A stretch of DNA of 44,945 bases from a virus. The notes beneath the pieces were generated by a model, which worked only from the letters and a program-made list of their open reading frames with translations, made no database searches and was not told where the DNA came from. Numbering within the stretch: the first letter of the stretch is position 1; every line of letters starts with the position of its first letter. Both the position numbers and the translations under genes were made by a program. Shown piece by piece: positions 1 through 41,769 of the stretch. The stretch spans positions 1 through 44,945 of IMG/VR virus record IMGVR_UViG_3300020215_000018; one strand, given 5' to 3'.

Positions 1-127
1 ACCAACCGCTACGGCGTCTACGTCGAGACCGACAAGTCCTACTTCGGTGGCGATGTCAATACCGACGGCAACGTGGTCGCGCAGGCGGCCGGTAAGGGCT
101 TGCAGATCAAGGAGGGCAGCAACGCCC
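1..127. repeat. Terminal direct repeat, left copy (contig overlap)
   Basis: Bases 1-127 are identical to 44819-44945. The repeat lies inside the tail-spike reading frame and keeps the frame across the join. A repeat of exactly 127 bp equals a common assembler k-mer size, so it is most simply the overlap left when a circular genome is assembled. A true terminal redundancy would not be expected to cut a coding sequence at such a length. Confidence 0.95.
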
Positions 128-360
128 GGATGGGCCGCGCCACCCTCGTGGGCGGCACCGTGACCGTCGCGAACACCAGCATCACCGCCTCCACGCGCAT
201 CTTCTTGTCCCGCGCGGTTGGCGGCGGCACGCGCGGCTTCCTCGAGGTGGGCACGGTCACGGCCAACACCTCGTTCGTCATCAACTCCGTCGACGGCGCG
301 GGCGCGCTCGTCGCCGACACGTCGCAAGTGGATTGGCTCCTGGTCGAGCCGTCGCCCTAG
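1..360 (+). CDS. Tail spike, C-terminal part (continues from 41774 across the contig join)
   Basis: This open frame has no start of its own. Base 1 is a first codon position of the gene that starts at 41774 and runs off the right end. The 119 residues before the TAG at 358-360 include KGLQIKEGSNARMG and then a beta-rich segment ending WLLVEPSP, a C-terminal module seen in many phage tail fibres and spikes. It probably forms the trimeric distal tip. Joined length is 3,405 nt (1,134 residues). An ATG at 73 is in frame but lies inside the repeat and is not a start. Confidence 0.9.
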   Translation, partial: TNRYGVYVETDKSYFGGDVNTDGNVVAQAAGKGLQIKEGSNARMGRATLVGGTVTVANTSITASTRIFLSRAVGGGTRGFLEVGTVTANTSFVINSVDGAGALVADTSQVDWLLVEPSP

Positions 361-372
361 AAGGAGGAGTAG

Positions 373-777
373 ATGCTTCGCAAGTTCGTCACCGGCGCCG
401 CCCTCGTGGCGGCGCTTCTTTGTGCGCCCCTTCCGTCGTTCCGCGGGGCGCCGCTTGCCGGCGTGCTGCCGTTCGCGGCGCCGGCCTTCGCGGTCGGCGA
501 CCTCAACACGCCCCTGGCCGTCACGGCGGTGTCCGTGACCAACAGCGCCACCAGCCTGCTCGCCGGGTCGACGCTGGCGAGCGAGCCGTACAAGGGGTTC
601 TTCCTGAACCCCACGGACGGGGAGATCGCCGTAGGGGGCTCCGCCGTGACCACGGCGACGGGCTTCCTGCTGGGCGCGGGCTCGATCTTATGGGTCGAGT
701 GGAGCCGGGGGCGCCAGTGGTACGGCATCAGGACCGGCGGCAGCAACGTCAACACGCGCATCGTGCTGGTGCGTTAA
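373..777 (+). CDS. Exported small protein with signal peptide, next to tail spike
   Basis: 134 residues. An AAGGAGGAG site at 361-369 precedes the ATG. The N-terminus is a Sec-type signal: positive MLRK, a hydrophobic Ala/Leu core, and a likely AFA cleavage site near residue 40. The mature part of about 95 residues is beta-rich and small, with LLAGSTLASEPYKGFFLNP and a WYGIRTGG stretch, like small tail-tip proteins. It lies 12 bp after the tail-spike stop and is followed by two other signal-bearing genes. A signal peptide on a tail-tip-like protein is odd, because virion proteins are normally assembled in the cytoplasm. The function is unknown. Confidence 0.8.
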   Translation: MLRKFVTGAALVAALLCAPLPSFRGAPLAGVLPFAAPAFAVGDLNTPLAVTAVSVTNSATSLLAGSTLASEPYKGFFLNPTDGEIAVGGSAVTTATGFLLGAGSILWVEWSRGRQWYGIRTGGSNVNTRIVLVR

Positions 778-778
778 G

Positions 779-1267
779 ATGCGGCGCGACTTGTTCAACA
801 CCGTCCTGGCCGCGCTCGTCGGCATCGTCGTCGCGGCGCCGGCCGTCGGGGCCGTGAACTTCCAGCGCGGCCCGGCCAGCAGCACACAGGCCGGCATCAT
901 CACGACCGGGGCGCAGACCTTCCAGGGCACCAAGACCTTCCAGGGCAACCTGAACGCCGATTTATCGCTGCGCGTGGGCACGAGCAGCACGGGCACGGCC
1001 ATTACCCGCATCAAGGTCTTCTCGCAGAGCCTGACGCCGGCCAGCGTGGCCGCGGACACCAGCGCGGCCCAGGCGTTCACGGTGACGGGGCTGACGACCT
1101 CGGATGTCGTGTTCGTCAACCCGCCGGGCAGCTTCACCACCGGCCTGGGCATCGCGGGTTGCCGCGTGTCGGCGACGGACACCTTGGAAATCCGCTTCGG
1201 CAACAGCACCGCCGGCGCCCTGACCCCCACGTCGGGCACCTACAAGATCTACGCGCTGGCCTTCTGA
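779..1267 (+). CDS. Exported tail-fibre-fold protein, paralogue A
   Basis: 162 residues. The ATG follows the previous stop by 1 nt. The signal peptide is MRRDLFN plus a hydrophobic run ending in AVGA, with predicted cleavage before VNF at about residue 26. The mature part has TTGAQTFQGTKTF, a repeat type common in phage tail fibres, then SLTPASVAADTSAAQ and a beta-sandwich-like region ending LTPTSGTYKIYAL. This C-terminal pattern recurs in receptor-binding tips of phage fibres. It is clearly homologous to the next gene. Roles to consider are an exported decoy, a surface-exclusion factor, or a virion protein with an unusual leader. None is shown. Confidence 0.8.
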   Translation: MRRDLFNTVLAALVGIVVAAPAVGAVNFQRGPASSTQAGIITTGAQTFQGTKTFQGNLNADLSLRVGTSSTGTAITRIKVFSQSLTPASVAADTSAAQAFTVTGLTTSDVVFVNPPGSFTTGLGIAGCRVSATDTLEIRFGNSTAGALTPTSGTYKIYALAF

Positions 1268-1767
1268 TGCGAGCGCTACTGATGCCCCTGGCCGGCCTTC
1301 TGGCCGGTCTCCTCGCGACCCTCCCGGCCCACGCGGTGAACTTCACGTTGCGGGATGACGCGGCGTCGGCGACGCAGCCCGGCGTGATGACGACCGGCAC
1401 GCAGACCTTTGCCGGCGACAAGACCTTTGCCGGCATCCTGCAAACGGACACCTCGATGCGCGTCGGCGGGTCGAGCAATGGCACGACCTTCACGCGCTGG
1501 CGCTGCTTCTCCGGCACGTTGACGCCGGCGGCGGTGAGTGCCAACACCACCAACCGCAACACCTTCAACGCGGCCACCAACTTCATCGGGATGAACAGCT
1601 CCGACTACATGTTCGTCTGCCCGCCGGCCGGGATGCCCGATGGCGTGGGCATCGTGGGATGCCTGGGGACGGGCAGCTCGATCTTCCAAATCATCTTCCA
1701 GAACTACACCGCCGGCAGCCTGACCCCCGTGTCGGGCACCTACCGGCTCGTGACGTTCCGGCCGTAG
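1267..1767 (+). CDS. Exported tail-fibre-fold protein, paralogue B
   Basis: 166 residues. The ATG at 1267 overlaps the preceding TGA (TGATG), so the two are translationally coupled; longer in-frame starts lie inside the previous gene. The signal peptide MRALLMPLAGLLAG ends in AHA before VNF. The mature protein matches its neighbour along its whole length: TTGTQTFAGDKTFAG, LTPAAVSANTT, VGIVGC and LTPVSGTYRLV align with the same blocks. The pair therefore arose by tandem duplication, and both copies kept a signal peptide, which argues the leader is functional. Two extra cysteines in the mature part could form a disulfide after export. Confidence 0.8.
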   Translation: MRALLMPLAGLLAGLLATLPAHAVNFTLRDDAASATQPGVMTTGTQTFAGDKTFAGILQTDTSMRVGGSSNGTTFTRWRCFSGTLTPAAVSANTTNRNTFNAATNFIGMNSSDYMFVCPPAGMPDGVGIVGCLGTGSSIFQIIFQNYTAGSLTPVSGTYRLVTFRP

Positions 1768-1777
1768 GGGGGTCGTC

Positions 1778-2284
1778 GTGATCCTCGCCATCTACAACAC
1801 CGCCAAGGCGCTCTGGTCCCGCGCGAACGACTGGATCAAGGCGCCCGAGCCGCGCGCCACGGTGCCCGCCTTCGACACCCCCGAGCAGGCGGCGGCCTAC
1901 ATGGCCCAGCACATCCCCTACACGGGCGACCCCGCGGGCGGGGCGGCGGACTTCTACCTGCACCCCGAACGCCTGCAGGCGGCCATCGAGCGCGGCTACG
2001 TCAAGACGCTCGCCATCGATTGCGACGACTTCGCCTCGTGGGCATACCTCGCCACCCGCGACACGGGGAGCCGCGTGCTGTTCACGCTGCGGGACGGGGA
2101 CGGCTGGGGCCACCACGTCATCTGCGTGGGCCGGGACCGTCTGGGCCCCTGGGCCATCGACACCAGCGGCTACCGCCGCCTGCCCGACCAGAGCCAGGGC
2201 ACCATCCTGCGCGTTTTCAACGAGGTGTTCGCCGGCTCCGGCGTGCGCTTCGTCGAGGCCGTGTCGACGAGCTACCCCTTTTGA
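1778..2284 (+). CDS. Transglutaminase-like cysteine hydrolase
   Basis: 168 residues with a GTG start preceded by a GGGGGG site at 1767-1772. The sequence AIDCDDFASWAYLA places a cysteine at residue 82, GHHVICVG places histidines at 112-113, and WAIDTSGYR places an aspartate at 128. This Cys-His-Asp order is that of the transglutaminase-like (BTLCP-type) cysteine protease fold. Such genes occur beside lysis or tail genes in several phages. There is no signal peptide; the N-terminal 40 residues are helical and carry a YMAQH motif. It lies between the exported tail-like proteins and the lysis cassette. A role in cell-wall cutting or in processing the neighbouring proteins is inference. Confidence 0.7.
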   Translation: MILAIYNTAKALWSRANDWIKAPEPRATVPAFDTPEQAAAYMAQHIPYTGDPAGGAADFYLHPERLQAAIERGYVKTLAIDCDDFASWAYLATRDTGSRVLFTLRDGDGWGHHVICVGRDRLGPWAIDTSGYRRLPDQSQGTILRVFNEVFAGSGVRFVEAVSTSYPF

Positions 2285-2301
2285 CCCCGCTGGAGACGAC
2301 C

Positions 2302-2568
2302 ATGCCGCCGCCACCGACCACGCCCACGGACGACCTTCGCCAACTCATCGAGGCGAACCACCGCGAGGTGCTGGCCGCCATCCGGGGGGCCACCGACGAG
2401 AACGGCACGTGGCACCCCGGTATCGCCCCGCAGCTCGTGGCGCTCGCGGCCCGCGTCGACCGCCTCGAGCGCATCGTCTCGTCCGTCACCGCCCTGTTCC
2501 TGGGCGTGGCCGCGCTGGTCGCCGGGGCGTGGGCCCTGGTCTGGACCGGCCCCGCCCAGCACAAGTAG
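2302..2568 (+). CDS. XhlA-like membrane protein of the lysis cassette
   Basis: 88 residues. The ATG at 2302 follows a GGAGA site. Upstream in-frame starts would lie inside the hydrolase gene. Residues 10-60 are a hydrophilic amphipathic helix (DDLRQLIEANHREVLAAIRG, then RVDRLERIV), and residues 60-82 form one membrane helix. This layout matches the haemolysin XhlA family, small membrane proteins that act with holins. It sits 8 bp upstream of the endolysin. It may tether or regulate the lysis complex. Confidence 0.7.
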   Translation: MPPPPTTPTDDLRQLIEANHREVLAAIRGATDENGTWHPGIAPQLVALAARVDRLERIVSSVTALFLGVAALVAGAWALVWTGPAQHK

Positions 2569-2576
2569 GAGGCCTC

Positions 2577-2960
2577 ATGCCCTACCCCACCAAAACCCAC
2601 TACTCGGAGCACTTCACGCGCCGCGAGCTCGACTGCCACTGCGGCTGCGACGCCCCGCCGCACGTCGAGGCGGAGCTCGCCAAGACCGCGCTCGAGCTCG
2701 AGAAACTGCGCGCCTTGGTCGGGATGCCGCTGCACATCAACAGCGGATACCGCTGCCCGGCGTACAACAAGCGCATCGGCGGGGCGCCCAAGAGCCAGCA
2801 CATGCAGGGCAAGGCCGCCGACGTGTCCGCACGCTGCTCGCCGTCCTACGTGGCCCAGGCCGCGGAGAAGGTGCCGGCCTTCGACAACGGCGGCATCTGC
2901 CGCTACGCCGGCTTCACGCACGTCGACCGCCGCGGCTACCGCGCGCGCTGGGAGGGTTAA
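2577..2960 (+). CDS. Endolysin, M15A-type peptidoglycan peptidase
   Basis: 127 residues. The start follows TAGGAGG at 2566-2572. The fold matches the peptidase M15A family: HYSEHFTRRELDCHCGC at the N-terminus, LHINSGYRCPAYN, then SQHMQGKAADV with zinc ligands H75 and D82, and FTHVD with H115. The family cuts peptide cross-links in peptidoglycan. There is no signal peptide, so release must depend on a holin; two membrane-protein candidates follow within 600 bp. The CHCGC motif near residue 22 is common in phage members. Confidence 0.92.
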   Translation: MPYPTKTHYSEHFTRRELDCHCGCDAPPHVEAELAKTALELEKLRALVGMPLHINSGYRCPAYNKRIGGAPKSQHMQGKAADVSARCSPSYVAQAAEKVPAFDNGGICRYAGFTHVDRRGYRARWEG

Positions 2961-2963
2961 GCC

Positions 2964-3149
2964 ATGATCGACATCGACGCCCAGTTGGAGAAGTTCGCGC
3001 ACACCGCGCTGAACTGCGCCCTCGAGGAGATGCAGCGCACGGCGCGCGGCGAGAGCGACGCCGACTTCAACTCCACGGTGAGCGCCATCAAGAAGATCCG
3101 CAAGGACCTGGCTGGCTTCCGCAAGAAGCGCGCAAAGGCGGCCCGCTGA
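2964..3149 (+). CDS. Hypothetical small basic protein in lysis cassette
   Basis: 61 residues. The ATG lies 3 bp after the endolysin stop; the stop overlaps the next start (TGATG). It is helical and ends in a very basic tail (KKIRKDLAGFRKKRAKAAR). No membrane segment or signal peptide. No family is recognised. Tight coupling on both sides shows it is translated with the lysis genes. Confidence 0.65.
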   Translation: MIDIDAQLEKFAHTALNCALEEMQRTARGESDADFNSTVSAIKKIRKDLAGFRKKRAKAAR

Positions 3150-3463
3150 TGGACCCCACCACCCTGACCCCCTCCGGCTGGGCGCCGGTGGCCGGCGTCG
3201 CCATCGCCGTGCTGCTGCGCGTCGGCCAGGCGCGCCTCGACCCCACCCTGGCCGGGCTGGGCGCTCGCCGCGGCCTGGTCACGGCGGGCTTCACCCTGGC
3301 CGGCGTGGCCGCGGGCGTGGCCGTGGCGGTAGCGACCGGCAACCCGTCCGCCCTGCTCGCCCTGGACCCCAACGCGGTGAGCCTGGCCGTCGTGGACGTG
3401 CTGGCGGCCCTGGCGCCCGTGGGCGTCGCGGCCGTGGTGCCGACGAAGGATGGGCGGCCGTGA
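3149..3463 (+). CDS. Holin candidate (membrane protein)
   Basis: 104 residues. The ATG overlaps the previous TGA. Three hydrophobic segments are visible: about residues 10-24, 42-62 and 72-98, separated by short polar turns that include RVGQARLDPTL, and the protein ends with the charged tail PTKDGRP. Size, number of helices and place after the endolysin fit a class I holin, which would form the membrane lesion that lets the endolysin reach the wall. No named holin family is recognised, so the call rests on topology and context. Confidence 0.6.
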   Translation: MDPTTLTPSGWAPVAGVAIAVLLRVGQARLDPTLAGLGARRGLVTAGFTLAGVAAGVAVAVATGNPSALLALDPNAVSLAVVDVLAALAPVGVAAVVPTKDGRP

Positions 3464-3525
3464 GCATAGCGCTCATCTTCATCCTCGGCTTCTGGATTGG
3501 CCTATGCTTCGCTAGGCTCATTTGA
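3460..3525 (+). CDS. Tiny 21-residue single-pass membrane peptide
   Basis: A GTG at 3460 overlaps the TGA of the holin candidate (GTGA), the same coupling used throughout this genome. It encodes 21 residues: a nearly unbroken hydrophobic helix (IALIFILGFWIGLCFA) and a basic end RLI, then TGA. Chance could produce such a frame, but the overlap, hydrophobicity and position at the end of the lysis operon support translation. It could be a lysis regulator or an accessory pinholin-like peptide. Confidence 0.5.
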   Translation: MSIALIFILGFWIGLCFARLI

Positions 3526-3561
3526 TAAGCCTCGGCCGTCCCGGGCGGCGCGTGCCCAGTC

Positions 3562-3578
3562 GTCCGCAACTTGCGGAC
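3562..3578. promoter_or_regulatory. 17-bp perfect palindrome
   Basis: GTCCGCAACTTGCGGAC, with 8-bp arms around one central base, 36 bp after the last lysis gene. It could be a protein-binding operator. No U-tract follows, so it is a poor terminator. Confidence 0.5.
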
Positions 3579-3664
3579 ATCTCAAGGCGCCTGCACCGCG
3601 ACGGCCAAGGGCGGGTGGAGACGTCACCCGCAGCACGACGACGGAGACGGGGAGGAAGGGCCCC

Positions 3665-3689
3665 GCGCCGGGGAGGACCGCCCCGGCGC
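3665..3689. terminator. GC hairpin after lysis operon (possible terminator)
   Basis: Arms GCGCCGGGG and CCCCGGCGC form a perfect 9-bp stem with a 7-nt loop. There is no T-run on either side. It is the strongest hairpin downstream of the lysis genes, so it may end or stabilise that transcript. Confidence 0.4.
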
Positions 3690-3723
3690 CCGTCGGGCGT
3701 GCGATATGTCGATGGAGGGGCCT

Positions 3724-3758
3724 CCCGATCGACAGGTCGCGCGAACGTGTCGATCGGG
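3724..3758. repeat. Inverted repeat, 11-bp perfect arms
   Basis: CCCGATCGACA at 3724-3734 and TGTCGATCGGG at 3748-3758, with a 13-bp spacer. The related words TCGACAGGCG (3758-3767) and TATCGATCGC (3800-3809) lie nearby. It fits a dimeric DNA-binding protein site. Confidence 0.6.
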
Positions 3759-3785
3759 TCGACAGGCGCCCGTCGTGGTGCGGTT

Positions 3786-3838
3786 CTATCACACAACCTA
3801 TCGATCGCCTATCACACAGCCCCGATCTTGTGCGATAG
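3786..3838. repeat. Three CTATCrCACA boxes
   Basis: CTATCACACA occurs at 3786-3795 and again at 3809-3818 (23 bp apart), and as the inverted copy TGTGCGATAG at 3829-3838. Two direct and one inverted copy within 53 bp, in a stretch less GC-rich than its surroundings, look like a regulator or recombination-factor array. The binding protein is unknown. Confidence 0.5.
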
Positions 3839-3868
3839 AGCAAATCAAGGCGTGGTGCGGCTAACGCG

Positions 3869-3891
3869 AAACCCCCCGCCGGAGCAGGGGG
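3869..3891 (-). terminator. Intrinsic terminator, leftward
   Basis: Read on the minus strand, an 8-bp stem (CCCCCTGC / GCGGGGGG with one G-U pair) closes a TCCG loop of the stable UNCG class and is followed by TTTCGCG. The T-run is short. It lies about 210 nt downstream of the promoter at 4107-4136. Confidence 0.7.
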
Positions 3892-4100
3892 CACGGTCCA
3901 GGTAACTCCGGCAAGCCGGCCAACCGATTAACGCCTTGGGTCCTTGTCGTAGGCCACCGCGGCCTGGCTGGAGGGCACGAGGCCCGTAGCCCTGGTCAAC
4001 CGCTCGGGAGGCGATCCCCGAAGGCATATCTAGGAGCCACCTAGATCGCCCCGGCACGGAGGCCGGCTGGTTGCGCAAGGGGCCTCTCGACCCCGAGCGC
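3869..4100 (-). ncRNA. Candidate structured small RNA beside the attachment region
   Basis: A sigma70-like promoter (TTGACC, 18 bp, TATACT) reads left into a stretch of about 230 nt that ends at an intrinsic terminator. No convincing gene lies between: the only frame uses a TTG with no ribosome site and runs through the terminator. The predicted RNA folds strongly: an 8-bp helix pairs 4099-4092 with 4001-4008, enclosing a 5-bp hairpin (4066-4051) and a 7-bp helix (4050-4044 with 4016-4010) with two inner hairpins. Further hairpins follow at about 3992-3971 and 3965-3951, and CCGGC/GCCGG at about 3920-3909. I recognise no known RNA family. Confidence 0.55.
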
Positions 4101-4106
4101 TCGACC

Positions 4107-4136
4107 AGTATAGGCGAGCGGTGATCGCCGGGTCAA
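4107..4136 (-). promoter_or_regulatory. Leftward sigma70-like promoter
   Basis: On the minus strand TTGACC (4136-4131) and TATACT (4112-4107) are separated by 18 bp, near consensus for both boxes. The expected start is near 4100. It lies downstream of the integrase, so it drives the RNA candidate rather than the integrase. Confidence 0.7.
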
Positions 4137-4143
4137 GGCGATG

Positions 4144-4193
4144 TGTGCGAGTTAGCGCATGCACTAGTCACCGTACGGCTTCTAACTCGCACA
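4144..4193. other. Candidate attP: 50-bp dyad next to serine integrase
   Basis: Perfect 12-bp arms TGTGCGAGTTAG (4144-4155) and CTAACTCGCACA (4182-4193) flank 26 bp. The total of 50 bp matches the usual attP size of large serine integrases, which bind as dimers to such imperfect dyads. The centre is T4168/C4169; inner positions keep only partial symmetry (GCAC left, GTAC right), also usual for attP. It ends 14 bp from the integrase stop. A stem-loop terminator for the integrase is the alternative, but no U-tract follows. Confidence 0.55.
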
Positions 4194-4207
4194 TGCACGA
4201 GGACCCC

Positions 4208-5755
4208 CTACCGGCCGCCCAACGCTTTCCCCGCGCGGGTCCTAAGATCCGTCACCTCCAGGGTGAAGTCCTCGGGCCAATCGGGGTCGGCCGACGGCCG
4301 GAAGCACACGGTGGCCGTGTCGGTCCCGTCGATGCGCACGTGCCGCAGCACCACCGACAACACCATGTTCCGCTCGGCCGGGCTCATGGTGGGCCACGCC
4401 CCGGCGAGGTCCCGCGGCAGGGGCGGCGCGTCGGCCTCGGGCTCGGGCGCGACCAGACGCGCCGCCTCGGCGGACAACTCGGCGAAGCGGGCGCGGGCCT
4501 GGTCGTCCGTGATGGCGCCCCACTCGTGCTGCTTGCGCACCGCTTCCCGTTGCCGCTCGACGCGCGCCAGGGCCGCGGCGGGGTCGGCCTTCTTCCGGGC
4601 CTTCGGCTTGGCGGGCGCCTCCCCGCGGGTCGCCAGGGGGGCCAGGGCCTCCAGGATGCGCGGGGCCACGGCGAGGTCCATCCACCGCTCGCTGACGCTG
4701 GCCGGGCGGTCGCACCCCACCGGGCCGCCGTCCGCCCGCGTGGCGCAGATGATGCGCACCGTCGGGTCCCCGCGCTTGCGGTTGACCAGGATGCGGCTCA
4801 TGGAGCGCCCGCAGGATCCGCAGCGCACGAGCATCGGCCACATGGACACCTCGCGGCTGGCGATGGCCCGCGAGGGTACGCCCGCGTTGCCGTCGAGGAC
4901 GGCCTGGGCCGCCTCCCACGTCGCGCGGTCCACCAGCGCCGGCCAGGGGGCCGGGCCCTCCACCCACTCGTCGGGGCGCGTCGCCACGGCCACCTTGCGA
5001 CCGCCCCGGTTGACCCGGCGCGAACGCAACTGTCGCATCACCCCCATGTACGCCGGGTTGCGCAGGATGGTGTAGACCGTGTTGCGCCAGAGCGGCTTGC
5101 CGTCGCGGGACGTGCGCCCCTCCGCCGTGGCCGCCTTCATCGCGCCCAGCACGCTCCGCTTCGCCAGGAAGAGCTCGAACAGCCGGCGCACCGTCGCGGC
5201 CTCGTCCTCGTCCACCTCGAGCCGGCCCGGGTGCTTCGTGCCGTCGGGGTCGGTGCGCGCCTTGACGTAGCGGTAGCCGAAGGGCGCGTGCTTGCCGGCG
5301 AGGATGCGCCCCTGGGCGGCACGGAACCGGATGTTGTCGCGCACCCGGTCGGCCGTGTTCTCCGCCTCCATCTCCGCCACGATGATGAGGATGCGCAGCA
5401 CGAAGCGCCCCATGGTCGTCGTCGTGTCCAGGTCCTGCGTCAACGAGGACAGCCCCACGTCGTGGCGGGCGAAGTCCTGGAGCAGCTGCAGGTAGTGGGC
5501 GGCGTCGCGGGACAGGCGGTCGATCTTGTAGACCAGGACCACGTCCACGGCGCGCCGCTTCACCATGGCCTCCACGCGGGCCAGGCCGGGCCGGTCGGCC
5601 TTGCTGCCGCTCATCACGTCCACGACCTCTTCCACGAGGTCCCAGCCGCGCCGCGTGCAGTAGTCGCGGGCAAGGGCCTTCTGCGCGTCCAGGCTGCAGC
5701 CGTCGCGCTCTTGGAGACTGCTGCTCACTCTGGCGTAGAGGACGGCGCGGGTCAC
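4208..5755 (-). CDS. int: Large serine recombinase (phage integrase)
   Basis: 515 residues from a GTG at 5755. The resolvase N-terminal domain (about 1-150) starts VLYARVSSSLQ with the catalytic serine at S11, and has DVVLVYKIDRLSRD and LIIVAEMEAENTADRVRDN. A recombinase domain follows (about 165-290, with NTVYTILRNPAYMGVM). A zinc ribbon begins RCGSCGRSMSR near residue 310 and is followed by a coiled coil (about 395-445). This is the full large serine integrase layout, which inserts circular phage DNA by attP x attB exchange without host factors other than a directionality protein to reverse it. A candidate attP lies 14 bp past the stop. A serine integrase is less usual than a tyrosine one in P22-type phages. 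Confidence 0.95.
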   Translation of the reverse strand: MTRAVLYARVSSSLQERDGCSLDAQKALARDYCTRRGWDLVEEVVDVMSGSKADRPGLARVEAMVKRRAVDVVLVYKIDRLSRDAAHYLQLLQDFARHDVGLSSLTQDLDTTTTMGRFVLRILIIVAEMEAENTADRVRDNIRFRAAQGRILAGKHAPFGYRYVKARTDPDGTKHPGRLEVDEDEAATVRRLFELFLAKRSVLGAMKAATAEGRTSRDGKPLWRNTVYTILRNPAYMGVMRQLRSRRVNRGGRKVAVATRPDEWVEGPAPWPALVDRATWEAAQAVLDGNAGVPSRAIASREVSMWPMLVRCGSCGRSMSRILVNRKRGDPTVRIICATRADGGPVGCDRPASVSERWMDLAVAPRILEALAPLATRGEAPAKPKARKKADPAAALARVERQREAVRKQHEWGAITDDQARARFAELSAEAARLVAPEPEADAPPLPRDLAGAWPTMSPAERNMVLSVVLRHVRIDGTDTATVCFRPSADPDWPEDFTLEVTDLRTRAGKALGGR

Positions 5756-5806
5756 GAGGATTTCCCGGGATCGCCCGGTGGTATGCTGGTTTCAGGAGGG
5801 ACGAGC

Positions 5807-5962
5807 ATGCAGATCACCATCTCGACGCAGACGCGCGACGGCCGCGAAGCCGTTATCATCGCCCACAGCGCGGAAGAGGCCCGCGAGGGGGCGGAAGCCC
5901 TGGCGGCGTTCGAGGAAGCGCGTTGGCCCGGTCAGTGGACGGGCAAAGCCGACTCCACCTGA
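5807..5962 (+). CDS. Small protein divergent from integrase (directionality-factor candidate)
   Basis: 51 residues. An excellent AGGAGGG site (5794-5800) precedes the ATG at 5807. It starts 51 bp from the divergent integrase start. The sequence is acidic and helical (AHSAEEAREGAEALAAFEEARW) after a short beta start (MQITISTQTRDG). No family is recognised. Position facing the integrase makes a recombination directionality factor or integrase regulator possible, but those proteins have no shared motif, so this is inference. The last 31 bp overlap the convergent gene 5932-6159. Confidence 0.6.
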   Translation: MQITISTQTRDGREAVIIAHSAEEAREGAEALAAFEEARWPGQWTGKADST

Positions 5963-6159
5963 AGCGGGTCCTTCACCACCTTCTTATCCGCGGCGTGATG
6001 GAAGGCCAAGAACGCCCGCTGCATATCCTCCACGGTCATGATCGTCCTGGTTGTCTCGCCCTTCTGGTGAGGTGTCAGGGCGATCTTTTGCTCGACGGCG
6101 ATGCGCGTCAATTCCAGCGCGACCTCGCGGGCGGTCAGGTGCTTGGCTTCGTCTGCCAT
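5932..6159 (-). CDS. Hypothetical protein of lysogeny operon
   Basis: 75 residues. An AAGGAGATC site lies just upstream of the ATG at 6159, a strong start. It is helical: MADEAKHLTAREVALELTR, then MTVEDMQRAFLAFHHAADKK. No membrane or signal segment. It is the last gene of the leftward accessory group 6982-5932 and its 3' end overlaps the small plus-strand gene tail to tail. Function unknown. Confidence 0.65.
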   Translation of the reverse strand: MADEAKHLTAREVALELTRIAVEQKIALTPHQKGETTRTIMTVEDMQRAFLAFHHAADKKVVKDPLQVESALPVH

Positions 6160-6233
6160 GGTGATCTCCTTGTCGTGGTAGGGCTAGGCGTCGAGCGGCC
6201 AGGGCGGGCGGGAAGCGGGGGGAGGTCATGGGG

Positions 6234-6479
6234 CTAGTGGCACTTCTTGCACGGCACCCCGCCTTGCCGCTCTGCCTCCGCCCGCGTGACGCGCACGCAG
6301 TTCTTGCAGTCGAAGTAGCGGCAGCCCTGCTCGTGGAACTTCTTGCTCGACGTGTTCATGCTGACCGTGCCGGCCGCCACGGCCGCGCCGGGCTGGGGCT
6401 TGGCCTTCTTCGCGTCGGCGTCGGCCATCGGGGCAAAGGCGAGCATCGCGGCGGCCAGCAGGGCGGGGAAGATGCGCAT
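6234..6479 (-). CDS. Exported cysteine-rich, Ada-metal-binding-like protein
   Basis: 81 residues from the ATG at 6479; a longer frame from 6563 overlaps the upstream gene and its extra residues are not signal-like. The signal peptide MRIFPALLAAAMLAFAPM ends near ADA. The mature part has SSKKFHEQGCRYFDCKNC and ends RQGGVPCKKCH: the pattern KFHxxGCRYxxC ... AExxGGxPCKxC is that of small metal-binding modules related to the Ada zinc domain, often found alone in exported proteins. It follows the adhesin E-like gene by 11 bp, so both are likely co-expressed from the prophage. A periplasmic or surface role is inferred. Confidence 0.7.
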   Translation of the reverse strand: MRIFPALLAAAMLAFAPMADADAKKAKPQPGAAVAAGTVSMNTSSKKFHEQGCRYFDCKNCVRVTRAEAERQGGVPCKKCH

Positions 6480-6490
6480 GGGGGCTTCCT

Positions 6491-6982
6491 TTAGCGACCA
6501 TACCTGGCTGCCAGGTAACGACACTCCGTGTCCTTGGCTGTGTGAGGAATCACGTAATCCCACTTTGACCCCTGCTCCTCAAATGTGTAGCTCATTCCAG
6601 GAATGGAGTTTCCGTCAAATGTGTACGACGTAGATTTAAGTAGCTTGTATCTCTTCCTTTTGATGTCCATCATTACAAGCTCCATATCGTACGCCCAGTT
6701 ATTAATATCCGATTCACTGACCCCTATGTTATCAAACCCGCCGTACCGCTTTACAATCCTCTCTTTGTATCGGTCGCGGATTGACTGCCTTGTCCATGAC
6801 TCATCTGGGTTGAGTACAGACTTAATCCAATACTGATAGATTCCACCGCCCAGCGGCGTTATAGAAGACAGTTCTAAGAAGTGGTAGTGCGTTGATGTGC
6901 GCGAGAGTTCGGTTAGCGTGGCCTGGGCGGGAAGTTGGAGCGCGGCCACAAGGCAAAGCGCCAAACCAAGTCGTCGCGTCAT
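6491..6982 (-). CDS. Exported adhesin E-like protein (moron candidate)
   Basis: 163 residues. Signal peptide MTRRLGLALCLVAALQLPAQA. The mature part matches the surface-adhesin E-like family: HYHFLELSSITPLGGGIYQYWIK (residue for the 'structural marker' strand), a YDMELVMMDIKRKRYKLLKSTSY central strand, and WDYVIPHTAKDTECRYLA at the end. Such proteins are usually host surface or periplasmic proteins. The coding DNA from about 6500 to 6860 is markedly richer in A and T than anything else in the window, a sign of recent acquisition. It lies in the lysogeny operon, so it is probably a moron expressed from the prophage that changes the host surface. Confidence 0.75.
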   Translation of the reverse strand: MTRRLGLALCLVAALQLPAQATLTELSRTSTHYHFLELSSITPLGGGIYQYWIKSVLNPDESWTRQSIRDRYKERIVKRYGGFDNIGVSESDINNWAYDMELVMMDIKRKRYKLLKSTSYTFDGNSIPGMSYTFEEQGSKWDYVIPHTAKDTECRYLAARYGR

Positions 6983-7044
6983 CTGTCACCGACACCTTTC
7001 CTGATCGCCAACCGCCAAGCACTGAAGCGTGTAGGACGACATAA

Positions 7045-10432: not shown

Positions 10433-10668
10433 GCATCACCGTCACCTTCACCGGCGCCGACCTCGCCGACATCAAGGGCCAGATGAACGCCTTCCTGGCC
10501 GCGGACGCGTCCGCGCGCTGCAAGGAGTTGGAGAGTCGTCTGTGGAGCGCGGCCCAACGCATCGGCGAACTGCAGATGGAGCTCGCCGAGGCGAAGAAGG
10601 CCCGCCCCTACAGCGAGGCCATCCCGATGGGCGCCCGCGAGGCGTCCGGCTGCAAGGGGGTGGCGTGA
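10429..10668 (+). CDS. Coiled-coil hypothetical protein
   Basis: 79 residues, ATG overlapping the previous stop (ATGA). Starts with a short beta segment (SITVTFTGADLAD), then a long helix (CKELESRLWSAAQRIGELQM). Stop overlaps the next start. No family recognised. Confidence 0.6.
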   Translation: MSITVTFTGADLADIKGQMNAFLAADASARCKELESRLWSAAQRIGELQMELAEAKKARPYSEAIPMGAREASGCKGVA

Positions 10669-11078
10669 TGCCGCAAGACGCGACCGCCCTCGTGGCGGAG
10701 GTCCGGGGGCGGCTGGCGGCGGCGTTGATGGGGCCGTGGTTCATGGAGCGCGACCGCAACGCCTTCGTCATCGGTCGCGAAACCTATCCCGGACGGGTGG
10801 GCGACTTCGTTTGCTTGACGGCAGATCTGTCGCCGGAGAGCGAGGCTGACGCCACCCTCATCGCCCACGCCCCCGCGGACCTCGCCGACCTGTGCGACGC
10901 GGTGGAGCGGGCCGAGGACGACGTGGCTCGCCTTCGCGGCTTCCTGGTCGACGAGGTGTTGCCGCGCTACGTCGAGTTGTTCGAGGCGGCGGGGCTGGGC
11001 GACGCCGCGACGAGCGTCGTGGTCGAGGGCGCCCGCATCATCCTCGACTCGCTGGAGCGCGCCGGAGGTGCCCAATGA
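10668..11078 (+). CDS. Ead/Ea22-like phage protein
   Basis: 136 residues, start coupled TGATG. The stretch SEADATLIAHAPADLADLCDAVERAEDD is typical of Ead/Ea22-type phage early proteins, which combine a short beta start (GPWFMERDRNAFVIG) with an 'ADAxLIAxAPxDL' helix. Role in phages is not established; they are non-essential early genes. Confidence 0.6.
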   Translation: MPQDATALVAEVRGRLAAALMGPWFMERDRNAFVIGRETYPGRVGDFVCLTADLSPESEADATLIAHAPADLADLCDAVERAEDDVARLRGFLVDEVLPRYVELFEAAGLGDAATSVVVEGARIILDSLERAGGAQ

Positions 11079-11491
11079 GCGACGATCGCGTGGTCATCAA
11101 CGGCTACAGCTTCCCCGCGGGGACGGTCATCCCGCCCGAGGTGAAGACGGCGGCGCGCATGGGCATCAGCGCCGACGCGGCCCGCACCCTGCGCGCCCAG
11201 ATCGCCATCCAGACCGGCCGGCATCCGCTGAACGGCAAACCGCTGCGCGAGCCGCGAGGCAAGACCTGTGGGTCCTGCGCGCATTGCGTGGATTCCGGCG
11301 CACGAAGCCATAAGACCTTCTGGAAGTGCGCGATCGACCGCCCCAACTGGACCCGGGGACCGGGGAGCGACCTGCGCAAGAAGTGGCCCGCGTGCGCATC
11401 GTGGGCCGAACGACCGGACCCGGGCAACGCCCCCGCCCTCGGCTTGCAGGCAGACCCGGGCAACGCGCCCGAGTTGGGAGGTCGGCCGTGA
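11075..11491 (+). CDS. Zinc-ribbon early protein
   Basis: 138 residues, ATG overlapping the previous stop. N-terminal helical part about 60 residues; then KTCGSCAHCVDSGARSH, FWKCAIDRPNWTRGPGS, PACASWAERP: cysteines and a histidine placed as in small phage zinc ribbons that end in a CxxW element. The C-terminus has an imperfect repeat (RPDPGNAPALG / QADPGNAPELG). Function unknown; one of several zinc-ribbon proteins in this operon. Confidence 0.6.
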   Translation: MSDDRVVINGYSFPAGTVIPPEVKTAARMGISADAARTLRAQIAIQTGRHPLNGKPLREPRGKTCGSCAHCVDSGARSHKTFWKCAIDRPNWTRGPGSDLRKKWPACASWAERPDPGNAPALGLQADPGNAPELGGRP

Positions 11492-11658
11492 CCGACCCCT
11501 CGCCCTCCTGGCTCGCCGGCTACGAGGACGGGCGCCGCTGGCTCCGCGGCCTGCCCCCGCGGCGGGAGACCTGGCCGCCGGCCGACCCCATCGACTGGCA
11601 AGACGGCTTCGACAAGGGCCGCGCGAGCGGCACCCCCACGCAGAAAGGAACCCCGTGA
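11488..11658 (+). CDS. Small hypothetical protein
   Basis: 56 residues, GTG overlapping the previous stop (GTGA). WLAGYEDGRRWLRGL and IDWQDGFDKGRASG are two copies of a 'W-x(1-4)-GxxxGR' motif. Often such pairs occur in small phage proteins of unknown role. Confidence 0.55.
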   Translation: MTDPSPSWLAGYEDGRRWLRGLPPRRETWPPADPIDWQDGFDKGRASGTPTQKGTP

Positions 11659-12125
11659 CCATCCAAGCTACCAACCCGGTCCTACCCTTCCCCGGCGGCA
11701 TCCCCGCCGACTCCCCCGTTGCCGCGCCCTTCGAGGCCCAGCCGGGCGAGCCCATCACCATCGAGTCCCTGGAGAAGGGACGCTTCCTGGAGCGCGTCCA
11801 GCAACAGATCGACCACGCCGTGGCGACGCTCGCCCTGGGCGCCGACGGCAGCAGCGCGACGGTGACGGCCAAGGTCACGCTGACCAAAAGCGGCTTCGTC
11901 CACAACATCAAGACGGCCGTCGCCACTGCCGCCAAGACGGAGAAGCTGGAGGGCCGCGTCACGGCCACGGTGAACGAGGCCGGGCAGCTCACCACCTTCG
12001 ACGACAAGCGCGCCGCGGAGAAGCCCGCGAAGAAGGGCAAGGGCAAGGCGAAGAAGGAGCCCGAGCCGGAGACTGCCGCAGCCGCCGAGTCGACCCTGGT
12101 GGTCGAGACGGCCATCGAGGGCTAG
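11655..12125 (+). CDS. Hypothetical protein with lysine-rich tail
   Basis: 156 residues. GTG start 6 nt after GAAAGGAACC. The middle (IESLEKGRFLERVQQQIDHA, ATVTAKVTLTKSGFVHNIK) is an alpha/beta domain about 90 residues long; residues 115-140 are Lys/Ala/Glu-rich (KPAKKGKGKAKKEPE), suggesting contact with nucleic acid. It lies directly before the replication initiator. No family recognised. Confidence 0.55.
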   Translation: MTIQATNPVLPFPGGIPADSPVAAPFEAQPGEPITIESLEKGRFLERVQQQIDHAVATLALGADGSSATVTAKVTLTKSGFVHNIKTAVATAAKTEKLEGRVTATVNEAGQLTTFDDKRAAEKPAKKGKGKAKKEPEPETAAAAESTLVVETAIEG

Positions 12126-36777: not shown

Positions 36778-39700
36778 ATGAGCGCCTTCACGCCCGACAC
36801 CCTCCCCAGCCGCGAGAAGTTCGAGGCGACGCTGGCCGGCGCGGGCCTGCCGGCCGCGGAGGTCCAGCGGCTCCGCCGGAAGTTCTACAAGGAGGTCGTG
36901 CAGCCGACCATCCGGCCGATGACCGTCGCCCAGCGCGAGCGCCACCTGGCCGCCTGGAACAAGACGCCGACGGCGCCACCCCCCGTGGCGTCGGCCAACG
37001 GTCCGCTGGCCGACGCCTACATCGGCATGGCCCGCCAGGTAGCCGACGAGGGCCTGGCCGGGGGCATCCGCCGCAACGCCATGCAGGCGGCCCGCCGCGG
37101 CGCCTTGACCGCGGCCGAAAGCCTGGGCGTCATCCGACGCGAGCCCGAGGCGGCGCGCGAGCGCATCATACACGGGCCGAACAACGACCGCTGGTTGGAG
37201 GCACCGGGAGGCTACGGCGAGGACGTGGAGAGCGTCCCCTATGCCCTGGGCTCGGGCGTGGGCATGGTCGCGGAGCCGACGAACCTCTTGCCCATCGGGG
37301 CCATCAAGGCCGGCCCGCAGATGGCGAAGAACGTCATCCGCGGCGCGGCCACGGTGGGCGGCGTCAACGCCGCGATGGCCGGGAGCCAGTCCGTCCTGGC
37401 CGACACGGCCGATGGTCGGGCCATCGACTGGGAGCGGGCCAAAGAGAGCGCCGCGTGGGGCGCGGCCCTCGGCGCCCCGCTGGGCGGCGTGATGGGCGCG
37501 GTCGCCCCGCGCTCGCCGGTGATGCAGGCGGCCGGGCGGGCCGAGCGGCCGGTCGCGCCGGAAGAACTTCCCGACGAGGTGGTCATCCCGCGCGACCCCG
37601 GGCCGGCACTTGCCGGGCCGGCGATGGCGCCGGCGGCGGTCGCGGCGGGCAAGCCCAAGCCGGTGGCGCCCGCGGCGGCGCCGGGGCTCGCGGGCGAGGG
37701 GCCGGCGATGGTCGCTGGCAACGGCTGGGTGCCGCGGGCCGTGGGCCCCGATGTCGCACCTCGTGGTCTACCCGACACACTCGAGCAGCTGCGCGCCGAC
37801 GACCTCGCCGTGCACAACGCCAACGTCGGCGTCGCCGCGGCCCAGAAGCGCGCGGCCCTGCAGGCGGCAATGTCGCGGCACCGCTTCGCCGCCAACCGCA
37901 CGATGGGCGTCGACCCGAACAGCCTCGCCGACCCCGCGGCCTACGACTACTTCGGCCCCTACGAGCGTCCTGCCGGGCAGGAGCCCGTGCGCGGGCAATC
38001 GGCCGGCCAGCCCCAGCCCACGCGCCCGTCGATCGGGAGCGTGCAGCGCGCGGAGATGGCCGAAGCCTGGCAGCAGCGCGCGGAGGAAGGCGCGGCGTGG
38101 GCCGAGCACGAAGCCGTGTCCCCCGCGGGGCGTCGTCCCTACGTGGAGGTCGCCCCGGGCCTGATGGCCCCAGAAGGCGCACGGCCGCCCGTTGACGTGG
38201 CCGGCGTGCCCGCCCCGCCGCGCCGGGCGGCGCTGCAGCCTCGCATCGTGAACGAGGAGATGGACGCCTGGCAGCAGCAAGAGGCCTGGCAGGAGCACGA
38301 GGCGGCGGCGCTGCCCGCCCAAGATGGTCCGGACGCGCCGACCTTCATCGAGGGTGAGGGCGGGCAACTGGGCTTCGGCGATATGCTGCGAGAGCAGGCC
38401 CGGCAGTTACACGCTCACGCCGACGCACTCAAGGCCAAGCGCCAGGAGAAGAGGGCCCAGGGTATCACCGAGCGCCACGGCGGGCCGATCTCCGACGAGG
38501 TTCTGGAGATTGCCATGGCGCGCGGCTTGGCCCATGTGCTCGACGGCGTAGCTGACCTTGGTGAATTCACGGCTCGCCTGACGCAGGAGTTCGGCGAGGA
38601 GATCGAGCATCACGCGCGGCGTCTCTGGAACGAGGCACGCGGGCAGGCGGGCAGGATGCGCTCTATGCCCAGAGCGCGTGGCGGCCCACAACCCCCGCAG
38701 CGCATCGCCAGCATCCCCGTGCGGAGCCAGGGGCCGGCAAGCGGCGTCGGCGACTACGCCCGCCGGGTTCTCGCCGACCAGCACCAGGCGAGGCAGTACG
38801 AGTTCGGCGTCGCACCTGAGCGTGCCGTGCAAGCATTCAAGGATGCGCATGGCATCGATATCACGGGGGCCAAGCTCGTGATCGACGACTCCGGGGTCAT
38901 GCACGCTCGCAATCGCCACGGCCGAGGCTCTGGCGACGAGATGCCGGTCGGCCCCGAGGACTTCGACCACGTTGACCGCGCCATCCGCGAAGGCGAGATT
39001 CGCACGATCAACCCGAACAACGGCCAGTTGATGCGCAGCGATCGCGGCTTGCCCGGCGCAGAATTCTGGCTGCGCGTGAACGGCCACTTCATCGTGGCGG
39101 TCGTCCACCGGGCGCGAAAGGGTGACCTGGCGGTCCAAACCGTCTACAAGCTACCCGCGGGAAGGAGGTTGGGCGCGGCCGAGCATGGGGGCCTGATGCC
39201 GCCCGAAGGCAACCCGAGGCCTTACGTCCAAGACCGCGCCGAATCGGCCGCGCCCAATTCCACGGTATCACAGTCGCGCGACGGATCCAAGCCCCCCGGG
39301 GCCTTCGGCCATCTGCGAAACCTCCTGACCAGCGTCGAAGGATCGGCCACCGTCGAGGGCGCGGTGCTCGCCCCGGTGGCCCCCGCCGTCGCGGCCGCAG
39401 GCGCCGCCGTCCGCGGGGCCAAGGCCGTAGCTGCCGCCGCCCGGCCGCTGGCCCTCTTCCCCGAGCGCGCCGTCGCGGCCGCGGGTAAGACCGTCGGCAC
39501 GCACACGGCCAAGGGCGAGTTCAAGGCCGGCGAGGTCGCCGCCGGCTGGTACGACCGCGTCGTCCAGCCCCTGCTCAAGCCGCTCAAGGGCGAGGTCCCG
39601 GGCAACGACTACCAGGCGCTCAAGGACAAGGCCAACAACCGCTCGCGGAACCTACGTAAGGAGGGCGAGAAGATCGCCCGCGACATGGTCAACGGCATGA

Positions 39701-41769
39701 CCAACGAGGAGCTGGTCGACGCCTACCGCATCCTCAACGACCCGGCGCTCGCCGGCTCCGAGATGGGCCGCAAGCTGGAACCGCTACGCGATCGCATCAC
39801 CCAGCTGTCGCGCGAGCGCCTGGCCGTCGGCTCGCTGAACCTGACCCAGTTCGAGGCGCACGAGGGCAAGTACGTCCGCCGGCTCTACAACGACTTCCTC
39901 GACCAGAACCCGTCCTTCGCGCGCATCTGGGGTCGCAAGGTCCAGGGCTCCAAGAGCCGTGGCGTGAAGCGGACGATGGGCGCCGCGCACTTCGAGAAGC
40001 TGGACCGTCCCTGGGAGATGGTCGGGCGCGAGGGCGACCGCGTCATCATCGACGACGGCGCGGGCAACCGCATGAGCGTCCCCGAGAAGAGGCTGGGCGA
40101 GTACGAGGCCACGACGTGGAAGAAGCTGCGCACCCTGCCCGACGGGCGCGTGGAAGCCTGGCGCGACTGGACGCCGCGCGAACGCGAGGAGATGCACGGC
40201 GGCGAGAACACGAACGCGGCCATCGCCGTGGAAGCCACCTTTAAGCAGTTCGCCAAGGAGCTTGCCAACGGCGAGATGCTGCGCGACATCGCCCGCGACC
40301 CGGCGATGGCCGTGAAGGTCAAGCCCGGCGAGCAGCCGCCGGAGGGCTGGAAGCTCATCGACGGCGGCCGCAACGCCAGCGGCCTGCCGCTCTGGGGCAA
40401 GCTCGACGGCCACCACGTTCGGCCCGACGTGTACGCCGACCTCACCTTCGCCAACAAGCTGATGAACGACAAGGGGCCCTGGCGCAAGATCATGCGGGGC
40501 TGGAAGCTCGCCAAGACGGCCTACAACCCGGCGAGCCACATGATGAACTTCCTGCAGAACAGCGCGACGCTGGAGATGAACAACGGCAGCATGCTCGACC
40601 TTCCCGAAGCCGTGCGCATCTTCCAGGAGCAGGGGGCCCGCTTCGACGAGCTCGCGGAGCTGGGCCTCTTCCAGGACCGTCGGTTGGCCGTCGACCTGGC
40701 CTCGCACCTGCCGACGACATCGGTCGTGGCCTCGCCGACGGGGTTCATCAAGCGGACGCTCGCCGGCATGGCGAAGTTCCACGAAGGCGTGGTCGACACC
40801 TACCAGGCGCCCGACGATTGGTTCCGCGCGGCCCTGGTCATCGGCCTCGAGCGCGAGGGGTTCACGACGGCCGAGGCGGTGTCGATCGCCCGGCAGCGCA
40901 TGTTCCACGCCAACTACAACACCGACCTGACGGACAAGCTGGCGAACTCCTTCATCCCCTTCATCCGGGTCTTCGTCTGGAGCGCGGACGAGGTGCCCAA
41001 GATGGTGCTGCGCCACCCGCTCAAGTTCGCCAAGCTCGTCGGCCTTAAGTGGCTCTGGGACCGCTTCGCGGAGGCGCAGACCGGCCAGACGCAGGAGGAG
41101 ACGGACGCGCGCAAGCACCTGGCGCCGGAGTACCAGCAGGCGCCCCTGGGCATCACCCAGGTCCCCTGGCGCGACTCGATGGGCCAACCGCTGCACGCGG
41201 ACACGTCGGGGATGCTGCCGTGGGAGCCGCTGGCCCCCAACACCAGTGCCACGCTGCCGATGGTCCCCAAGGGGCTGCAGCCCGGCGGGCCCGTGGTGAA
41301 CGCCATCGAGGCGTACATGAACCACGACCTGCGCACGGGCCGCGAGATCCGCAACCCCGAGACGCCGCTGGGCGAGCAGGCCCGCGCCGTGGGCCGCTAC
41401 GCCTGGGACGCCACGATGCCCGGGGGCTTCAACGCCGCCAGCAAGGTGGCCGACGCCTATGCCGGCCTGCCCGACCGCCAGGGCCGGCGGTACGACGTGG
41501 GTACCGCGGCGCTGAACTTCGCCGGCACGCACATCCAGCCGACGCCGGCGGATGCCTACGCCCGCAAGATGCGGGGCTTCCAGGCGCGCATCAAGGAGGC
41601 GGAGCGCATCCAGCGCGAGATCGCGCGCGACCCGCGCCTCGGCGAGGCCGACCGCGCGGAGAAGTTAGAGGCCCAGACCGAGGTTATCCGGGACCTGGCC
41701 GAGGAGATCCTGGCCTTCCAAGAGCGCGTGAAGCCCGCGCTCGCCACGCCCGGCTTGAGGATGGAGTAG
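36778..41769 (+). CDS. Giant ejection protein with PBECR-like nuclease domain
   Basis: 1,663 residues. Residues 1-70: helical start. 150-330: Ala/Gly-rich hydrophobic stretches (possible membrane segments). 330-650: charged, Ala/Gln-rich linkers. About 690-795: a domain with LVIDDSGVMHARNRHG (I702-G715), DFDHVDRAI, FIVAVVHRARKG and LAVQTVYKLPAG; this matches phage-Barnase-EndoU-ColicinE5/RelE-like (PBECR) nucleases, with H709, R711, R713, H714 as likely active residues. About 940-1663: large helical part with WDWTPRE-like AWRDWTPREREEMHGGENTN, KLAKTAYNPASHMMNFLQNS, resembling large polyvalent virion proteins. The DNA around 38430-39300 is less GC-biased than the flanks, suggesting insertion of the nuclease module. 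Confidence 0.75.
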   Translation: MSAFTPDTLPSREKFEATLAGAGLPAAEVQRLRRKFYKEVVQPTIRPMTVAQRERHLAAWNKTPTAPPPVASANGPLADAYIGMARQVADEGLAGGIRRNAMQAARRGALTAAESLGVIRREPEAARERIIHGPNNDRWLEAPGGYGEDVESVPYALGSGVGMVAEPTNLLPIGAIKAGPQMAKNVIRGAATVGGVNAAMAGSQSVLADTADGRAIDWERAKESAAWGAALGAPLGGVMGAVAPRSPVMQAAGRAERPVAPEELPDEVVIPRDPGPALAGPAMAPAAVAAGKPKPVAPAAAPGLAGEGPAMVAGNGWVPRAVGPDVAPRGLPDTLEQLRADDLAVHNANVGVAAAQKRAALQAAMSRHRFAANRTMGVDPNSLADPAAYDYFGPYERPAGQEPVRGQSAGQPQPTRPSIGSVQRAEMAEAWQQRAEEGAAWAEHEAVSPAGRRPYVEVAPGLMAPEGARPPVDVAGVPAPPRRAALQPRIVNEEMDAWQQQEAWQEHEAAALPAQDGPDAPTFIEGEGGQLGFGDMLREQARQLHAHADALKAKRQEKRAQGITERHGGPISDEVLEIAMARGLAHVLDGVADLGEFTARLTQEFGEEIEHHARRLWNEARGQAGRMRSMPRARGGPQPPQRIASIPVRSQGPASGVGDYARRVLADQHQARQYEFGVAPERAVQAFKDAHGIDITGAKLVIDDSGVMHARNRHGRGSGDEMPVGPEDFDHVDRAIREGEIRTINPNNGQLMRSDRGLPGAEFWLRVNGHFIVAVVHRARKGDLAVQTVYKLPAGRRLGAAEHGGLMPPEGNPRPYVQDRAESAAPNSTVSQSRDGSKPPGAFGHLRNLLTSVEGSATVEGAVLAPVAPAVAAAGAAVRGAKAVAAAARPLALFPERAVAAAGKTVGTHTAKGEFKAGEVAAGWYDRVVQPLLKPLKGEVPGNDYQALKDKANNRSRNLRKEGEKIARDMVNGMTNEELVDAYRILNDPALAGSEMGRKLEPLRDRITQLSRERLAVGSLNLTQFEAHEGKYVRRLYNDFLDQNPSFARIWGRKVQGSKSRGVKRTMGAAHFEKLDRPWEMVGREGDRVIIDDGAGNRMSVPEKRLGEYEATTWKKLRTLPDGRVEAWRDWTPREREEMHGGENTNAAIAVEATFKQFAKELANGEMLRDIARDPAMAVKVKPGEQPPEGWKLIDGGRNASGLPLWGKLDGHHVRPDVYADLTFANKLMNDKGPWRKIMRGWKLAKTAYNPASHMMNFLQNSATLEMNNGSMLDLPEAVRIFQEQGARFDELAELGLFQDRRLAVDLASHLPTTSVVASPTGFIKRTLAGMAKFHEGVVDTYQAPDDWFRAALVIGLEREGFTTAEAVSIARQRMFHANYNTDLTDKLANSFIPFIRVFVWSADEVPKMVLRHPLKFAKLVGLKWLWDRFAEAQTGQTQEETDARKHLAPEYQQAPLGITQVPWRDSMGQPLHADTSGMLPWEPLAPNTSATLPMVPKGLQPGGPVVNAIEAYMNHDLRTGREIRNPETPLGEQARAVGRYAWDATMPGGFNAASKVADAYAGLPDRQGRRYDVGTAALNFAGTHIQPTPADAYARKMRGFQARIKEAERIQREIARDPRLGEADRAEKLEAQTEVIRDLAEEILAFQERVKPALATPGLRME

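Follow-up and report, generated by a model that had tools for sequence, protein, structure and literature searches.

Signal-bearing, fibre-tip-like proteins behind the tail spike of a temperate podovirus-like phage, and related gene rows in other phages

Introduction

Receptor-binding proteins of tailed phages are taken to assemble in the cytoplasm. The T5 protein Llp, a small exported phage lipoprotein, blocks the receptor and protects progeny. The absence of signal peptides has been used as a mark of phage receptor-binding proteins (PMC6199706), which agrees with the remark of an earlier note on the present DNA that virion proteins are not normally exported. For exported proteins encoded among tail genes, lambda Lom provides a precedent (PMC12309495).

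Here, we describe a phage in which three genes with signal-like N termini, E1 to E3, follow the tail spike gene, two of them encoding paralogues that share a spike-tip-like domain. The ingredients of this arrangement, i.e., a tip domain, Sec signals, and exported phage proteins among tail genes, are known singly; signal-bearing fibre-like proteins in rows appear to be a new combination, not found in the literature searched. The earlier note knew of no described system of this kind, and our searches for work linking signal peptides to tail fibres, secretion, or exclusion, which reached only a small part of the subscription journals, likewise gave no description. The arrangement is not unique, however, as runs of such genes occur in many unrelated phage contigs.

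Results

The window, i.e., the whole stretch of 44,945 b that was analysed, is an entire virus record and represents a complete temperate podovirus-like genome with a GC content of 70% and a 127-b direct terminal repeat at its ends. Terminase, portal, and major capsid genes match known phage families (phrog_2, phrog_156, phrog_334). The capsid protein is remotely related to that of BcepIL02-type podoviruses, its relatives occurring in Burkholderia, Ochrobactrum, Rhizobium, and Microcystis phages at 23 to 24% identity, and the terminase has relatives in Armatimonadota MAGs (up to 43%) and Proteobacteria. A minus-strand serine-recombinase-like gene (4208-5755), recognised from its sequence only, suggests a temperate life style. 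Near it lie two adjacent minus-strand genes with clear Sec signals (6491-6982 and 6234-6479), the latter ending in a cysteine-rich tail (GCRYFDCKNC...CKKCH); these are possible lysogenic-conversion genes.

The record break falls inside the tail spike gene. Read in frame on the circular record, the N-terminal part of the spike, which has phrog tail fibre matches, runs on the plus strand from 41774 to 44945 and on to window positions 128-360 across the terminal repeat. The C-terminal part (1-360, plus strand) carries a K1-lyase_C domain (Pfam PF24146, E value 7.1e-22) and no signal peptide, and the total length of the spike is 1134 aa. Upstream of it, a 1663-aa protein is encoded at 36778-41769 (plus strand). 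The genes behind the spike, all on the plus strand, encode E1 (373-777, 134 aa), the putative exported fibre-tip-like protein E2 (779-1267, 162 aa), its putative exported paralogue E3 (1267-1767, 166 aa), a 168-aa protein (1778-2284), a holin-like protein of 88 aa with one transmembrane helix (2302-2568), and an M15-type endolysin (2577-2960; phrog_894 endolysin, E value 9e-33). E1 to E3 thus sit between the spike and a holin/M15-endolysin module, and the coordinates and frames given for them in the earlier note are correct. The 168-aa protein has C-D-D, H-H, and D-T patterns that recall papain/transglutaminase-like peptidases, and searches of Pfam, PHROGs, and NCBIfam returned nothing significant for it.

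Gaps in the row from E1 to the endolysin range from -1 to 17 bases. The ATG of E1 is preceded by AAGGAGGAG, a strong Shine-Dalgarno ribosome site, E2 starts 1 nt past the stop of E1, and the start of E3 lies within a TGATG that overlaps the stop of E2. In-frame GTG codons directly follow the signal regions of E2 (854) and E3 (1336), both without a good ribosome site. The start/stop coupling together with the ribosome site of E1 makes the upstream ATGs the likely starts and thereby supports the signal regions. No plus-strand promoter was found around E1 to E3, and terminator-like hairpins there occur at chance level.

Sec signals were scored by a home-made rule (positively charged n-region, hydrophobic core, A-x-A site). 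The rule is crude and gives false matches on short unsignalled proteins at low hydrophobicity, and all counts given below therefore use its stricter setting. It accepts all three proteins, with strong scores for E2 and E3 (mean Kyte-Doolittle value of the h-region, 3.21 and 2.42) and a weak one for E1; shuffled versions of the same proteins pass in 3.6% (E2), 1.1% (E3), and 15% (E1) of cases. Among 32 genes of the window to which the rule was applied, the only positives are E1 to E3, the two minus-strand neighbours at 6234-6982, and a weak case at 29772. The claim that all three carry clear Sec signals is thus borne out for E2 and E3 and weakened for E1. The signals of E2, MRRDLFNTVLAALVGIVVAAPAVGA|VNF, and E3, MRALLMPLAGLLAGLLATLPAHA|VNF, have three parts and are textbook-like. 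The predicted signal peptide of E2 spans 779-853 with cleavage at VGA|VNF, a site placed from the rule and the start of the conserved E2/E3 sequence, while the rule itself favours APA|VGA three residues earlier; that of E3 spans 1267-1335 with cleavage at AHA|VNF. In E1, the signal is longer (about 40 aa) and less certain, with an A-F-A|V site (AFA|VGD). The alignment of E2 and E3 begins exactly at the predicted cleavage point (A|VNF), and the signal regions have diverged, the pattern expected of real signals with a conserved mature part. Judged from their sequences, E2 and E3 clearly qualify as candidate Sec-exported substrates of signal peptidase I, E1 weakly so.

Other classes of exported phage proteins were considered. 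Llp-type lipoproteins do not fit by reading, the signal regions of E2 and E3 having no cysteine and the ALLC of E1 misfitting a lipobox. Spanins, with a lipoprotein signal and/or a transmembrane anchor plus a coiled coil, do not fit either, since E2 and E3 show neither a lipobox nor a second membrane helix and their mature part is beta-rich; a Lom-type outer-membrane barrel does not agree with the predicted model of E2, a compact seven-strand sandwich.

As the earlier note had proposed, E2 and E3 are tandem paralogues, with 46 to 48% identity (48% across 139 residues). Their mature parts contain a fibre linker/shaft motif, TTGAQTFQGTKTFQG in E2 (899-952) and TTGTQTFAGDKTFAG in E3 (1384-1434). 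The TTGxQTFxGxKTF block in it does resemble BppL_N (PF18338; E values, 2.7e-4 and 1.1e-3), but at 20.8 and 18.9 bits both stay under the curated cut-off of 25.8, and membership in this family was rejected. Another 25 viral-contig proteins, almost all of them long and fibre-like, have the same motif in mid-protein.

The motif is followed by the tip domain, at 1001-1264 in E2 (residues 75-162) and at 1498-1764 in E3, where it contains three cysteines and is recognised by alignment to E2 and a profile match of 69.0 bits. AF2 models the E2 domain as a seven-strand beta sandwich (pLDDT 85 to 94 in most blocks) from an alignment of the E2/E3 pair only, with low confidence in the signal and the linker. 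When residues 77-162 were compared with the PDB by VIA-align 2, tailspike C-terminal domains came out on top (Z 5.8 to 6.7 over 79 to 88 residues), with KP32gp38 at 6.7 and 6.5 and HK620 at 5.8, followed by R-pyocin fibre tips and AP22 gp53. These values are modest, lying under the tool's 'clear' level of 8, and some dUTPase-like beta folds reach Z 5.0; hence, the predicted likeness to tailspikes does not prove kinship. The fibre-tip fold that the earlier note had read into both paralogues thus has, for E2, tentative support from a prediction at modest Z. Among predicted viral structures (BFVD), E2 matches small uncharacterised phage proteins (E value, 1e-8). Neither the domain profile nor the spike end gave a significant match among PDB sequences, and hhalign detected no sequence link between the C terminus of the phage's own spike and the E2 domain. 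No close relatives of E1 or E2 were found in viral contigs, and E3 has one motif-only match there, a 761-aa unsignalled fibre in contig L246. For E1, sequence searches detected no relatives, and with an AF2 model of very low confidence (pLDDT 39.5), nothing points to a fibre fold in this protein.

Hundreds of phage contigs encode homologues of the E2 domain (two scans confirmed 321 and 170 stretches), either as proteins of about 100 aa whose genes adjoin coat genes or lie close to them, or at the C terminus of fibre-like proteins of 300 to 1150 aa. They also adjoin portal genes, which places these sequence homologues among phage virion genes. The small proteins, for example those encoded near the coat gene in MW202697 and MW202674, share the domain with E2 by sequence but differ from it in the signal peptide, found in 0 of the 47 tested; their head-gene neighbourhood suggests capsid decoration. 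Three or four tandem E2-type domains per protein, without a clear signal, occur in L042, L045, L055, L075, L086, and others. A search of six whole bacterial genomes with related terminases found no copy of the domain, an uninformative result.

Two further complete phage genomes, both from Manatee Spring, encode the same domain behind clear signals, in UOF78540 (MW202554) and in UOF79734 (MW202637), the gene of the latter lying directly downstream of the annotated capsid gene. In the branch around these two proteins, signals were found in 13 of 46 domain proteins versus 39 of 624 other genes of the same loci, and in the branch closest to E2, they were found in none of 47 distinct proteins from other phages, a comparison of family branches (the two locus sets were found by different sequence patterns) and not of a random phage sample. 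With both branches pooled, 13/93 domain proteins and 44/1106 other genes carry signals (Fisher P = 2e-4), and signal genes cluster, amounting to 22/98 other genes in loci with a signalled domain protein versus 11/605 elsewhere (Fisher P = 9e-13), both P values being made somewhat optimistic by near-duplicate contigs. The domain also contains more cysteines in signal-bearing than in signal-free members (mean, 1.05 versus 0.15; P = 4e-4), which fits the expectation for proteins that fold under oxidising conditions outside the cytoplasm.

The signal-bearing genes come in runs of two to four, in phages that also show terminase, portal, or capsid genes nearby, and their signals are of a textbook Bacteroidetes type. 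Rows of four are seen in L235 (370, 1144, 347, and 1149 aa), where they follow terminase, portal, and capsid genes, and in L245 (1041, 587, 1599, and 179 aa), and rows of three in L230 (765, 862, and 871 aa) and L233. The latter has a further signal-bearing gene on the minus strand (10565-11707), whose product matches the tail fibre family phrog_892 (E value, 4.7e-14) behind a signal read by eye as MKKTLLNSFISLYLAACGSLHA|ADP. In L172, a signal gene lies between the portal and head protease genes, and in L193 and L013, the row by our reading leads into holin-like and endolysin-like genes, an order also found in the window. Standing beside hallmark phage genes, these rows are phage genes and not contamination. 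Proteins of L005, L007, L118, L142, L143, L152, L158, L172, L189, and L193 resemble E2 and E3 in combining a signal with a C-terminal domain of the same family, often in runs, and differ from them in that many are 300 to 1150 aa long with long shafts, come from other phages and hosts, and belong to a more distant domain branch. Signal-like N termini on proteins of tail-collar or tail-fibre type, for which an E2-type domain was not shown, were seen in L005 (9222-10163), L007 (8968-9519), and the L233 minus-strand gene, one of these being annotated as 'tail collar domain'. In L013, a contig of 72 kb that has portal- and capsid-like genes, a 1748-aa fibre-like protein (1792-7038; in L243, 2304-7547) has a signal peptide and the same linker motif as E2 and E3; more signal-bearing genes and the holin- and endolysin-like genes follow it.

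Isolates with an L235-related portal (Flavobacterium elemo and Maribacter Panino) have fibre-like genes without signals, and thus, the signal-bearing rows belong to some lineages and are not general to such phages. Among the isolates reached via the related portal, we found none with both virion proteomics and a signal-bearing fibre.

Discussion

The reading that we tentatively favour, and which may well prove wrong, is that an exported receptor-like domain works on the host envelope in the late stage of infection and thereby shields progeny or prevents superinfection. E1 to E3 would be late-operon proteins that leave the cytoplasm by the Sec pathway, and E2 and E3 would be duplicated minimal fibre tips, each consisting of a signal peptide, a short linker motif, and a spike-tip-like beta sandwich. 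After cleavage, with neither lipobox nor barrel anchor, they might be soluble in the periplasm or beyond and bind envelope material, e.g., glycans recognised by the spike, shortly before lysis and while it proceeds. This would occupy receptors on the dying cell, on debris, or on neighbours, so that released progeny would be spared and rival phages blocked. From the gene order and the signal-like N termini, we infer export and cleavage in vivo; trimerisation, ligand, timing, and benefit are likewise conjectural. Since the phage has its own full-length unsignalled spike, E2 and E3 seem to be extra copies of tip-like material, and this, together with their reduction to a linker plus tip, is why late envelope action is favoured. 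The signals and gene spacing, the recurrence and clustering of signals on this domain and its neighbours, and the higher cysteine content of signal-bearing members also speak for it. Against it, the signal-free state of the 47 proteins of the E2-like branch in other phages makes export in the window phage specific to its lineage, and no outer-membrane anchor or secretion route was seen by which a periplasmic protein could get to surface receptors ahead of lysis. The late gene position argues against a role in established lysogens.

The strongest rival, in our estimate rather unlikely, holds that E1 to E3 are virion parts that pass out of the cytoplasm, acquire disulfides and form trimers as they fold in the periplasm, and are attached to completed particles when the cell lyses. 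Such late docking is physically feasible, since particles accept P22-type tailspikes in vitro. Several contigs show no fibre-like genes other than signalled ones in the structural region, such as the four after the capsid gene of L235 and the four in L245, but these contigs are partial and other fibres may be out of view. The phrog_892 match of a signal-bearing L233 protein and the cysteine richness of the signal-bearing copies point the same way, as does the linker motif, normally a feature of virion fibres, which accordingly fits virion assembly as well as the envelope reading. Nonetheless, Flavobacterium elemo and Maribacter Panino make do with unsignalled fibre-like genes, the window phage is already equipped with a complete spike that lacks a signal, and E2 and E3 are too short for an obvious virion dock.

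Alternatively, the three genes might be moron-like lysogenic-conversion or envelope-modifying cargo, comparable to lambda Lom, whose adhesin-like products change the host surface without being aimed at phage receptors. Exported genes among tail genes are known from Lom (PMC12309495), and the serine-recombinase-like gene of the window phage has two signal-bearing minus-strand genes nearby. We nevertheless consider this unlikely, because E1 to E3 are tightly coupled to the late operon, with no separate promoter or terminator around them beyond chance, and because the rows of very long fibre-like genes elsewhere resemble infection machinery. The present sequence evidence does not decisively separate envelope action, virion docking, and surface cargo. 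The roles suggested in the earlier note, namely that a secreted receptor-binding domain could mask host receptors, serve as a decoy, or coat the cell, are likewise conjectures that the sequence tests do not tell apart from late addition to virions. It is quite improbable that the hydrophobic N termini have no export role and serve ordinary virion proteins in membrane contact or assembly, perhaps with translation starting at internal GTGs. Such codons do precede NF in E2 and E3, and the E2-like branch is unsignalled elsewhere. Yet, start/stop coupling favours the upstream ATGs, and the signals are complete in their three parts, have canonical A-x-A or V-x-A sites, and have drifted apart in sequence, as is usual for signals. 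In addition, randomised E2 and E3 rarely pass the Sec rule, and the same architecture is found in unrelated phages with Bacteroidetes-type signals.

Beyond this phage, it is quite possible, if still short of probable, that widespread undescribed cassettes export rows of fibre-like proteins late in infection, as a secreted receptor-masking layer or for periplasmic fibre maturation and fitting at lysis. If true, either version would break the rule that receptor-binding proteins of tailed phages are cytoplasmic until lysis. In several unrelated phages, the signalled rows would then represent either receptor blocking by secreted versions of the phage's own binding domains or a way of maturing fibres that has so far gone unnoticed. 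Each of these outcomes would matter for superinfection immunity, for host-range prediction, and for annotation pipelines, which possibly treat such genes as bacterial.

Compared with known systems, the predicted sandwich of E2 aligns best with the C-terminal (caudal) domains of the tailspikes of Klebsiella KP32gp38 (6tku, 9qrm) and HK620, and at Z 5.1 to 5.3 with R-pyocin fibre tips. However, those domains are the C termini of long virion proteins, whereas the E2 domain makes up nearly the whole mature protein behind a signal. With the N-terminal domain of BppL from the lactococcal baseplate, E2 and E3 share only the short linker block, the remainder being unrelated by the tests run. Lambda Lom, like the putatively exported E1 to E3, is encoded among tail genes, and it is exported, but it is an outer-membrane barrel, and E2 is a predicted soluble beta sandwich. 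The logic proposed here is that of T5 Llp, from which E2 and E3 differ in having no lipobox and in being composed of fibre-tip-like material.
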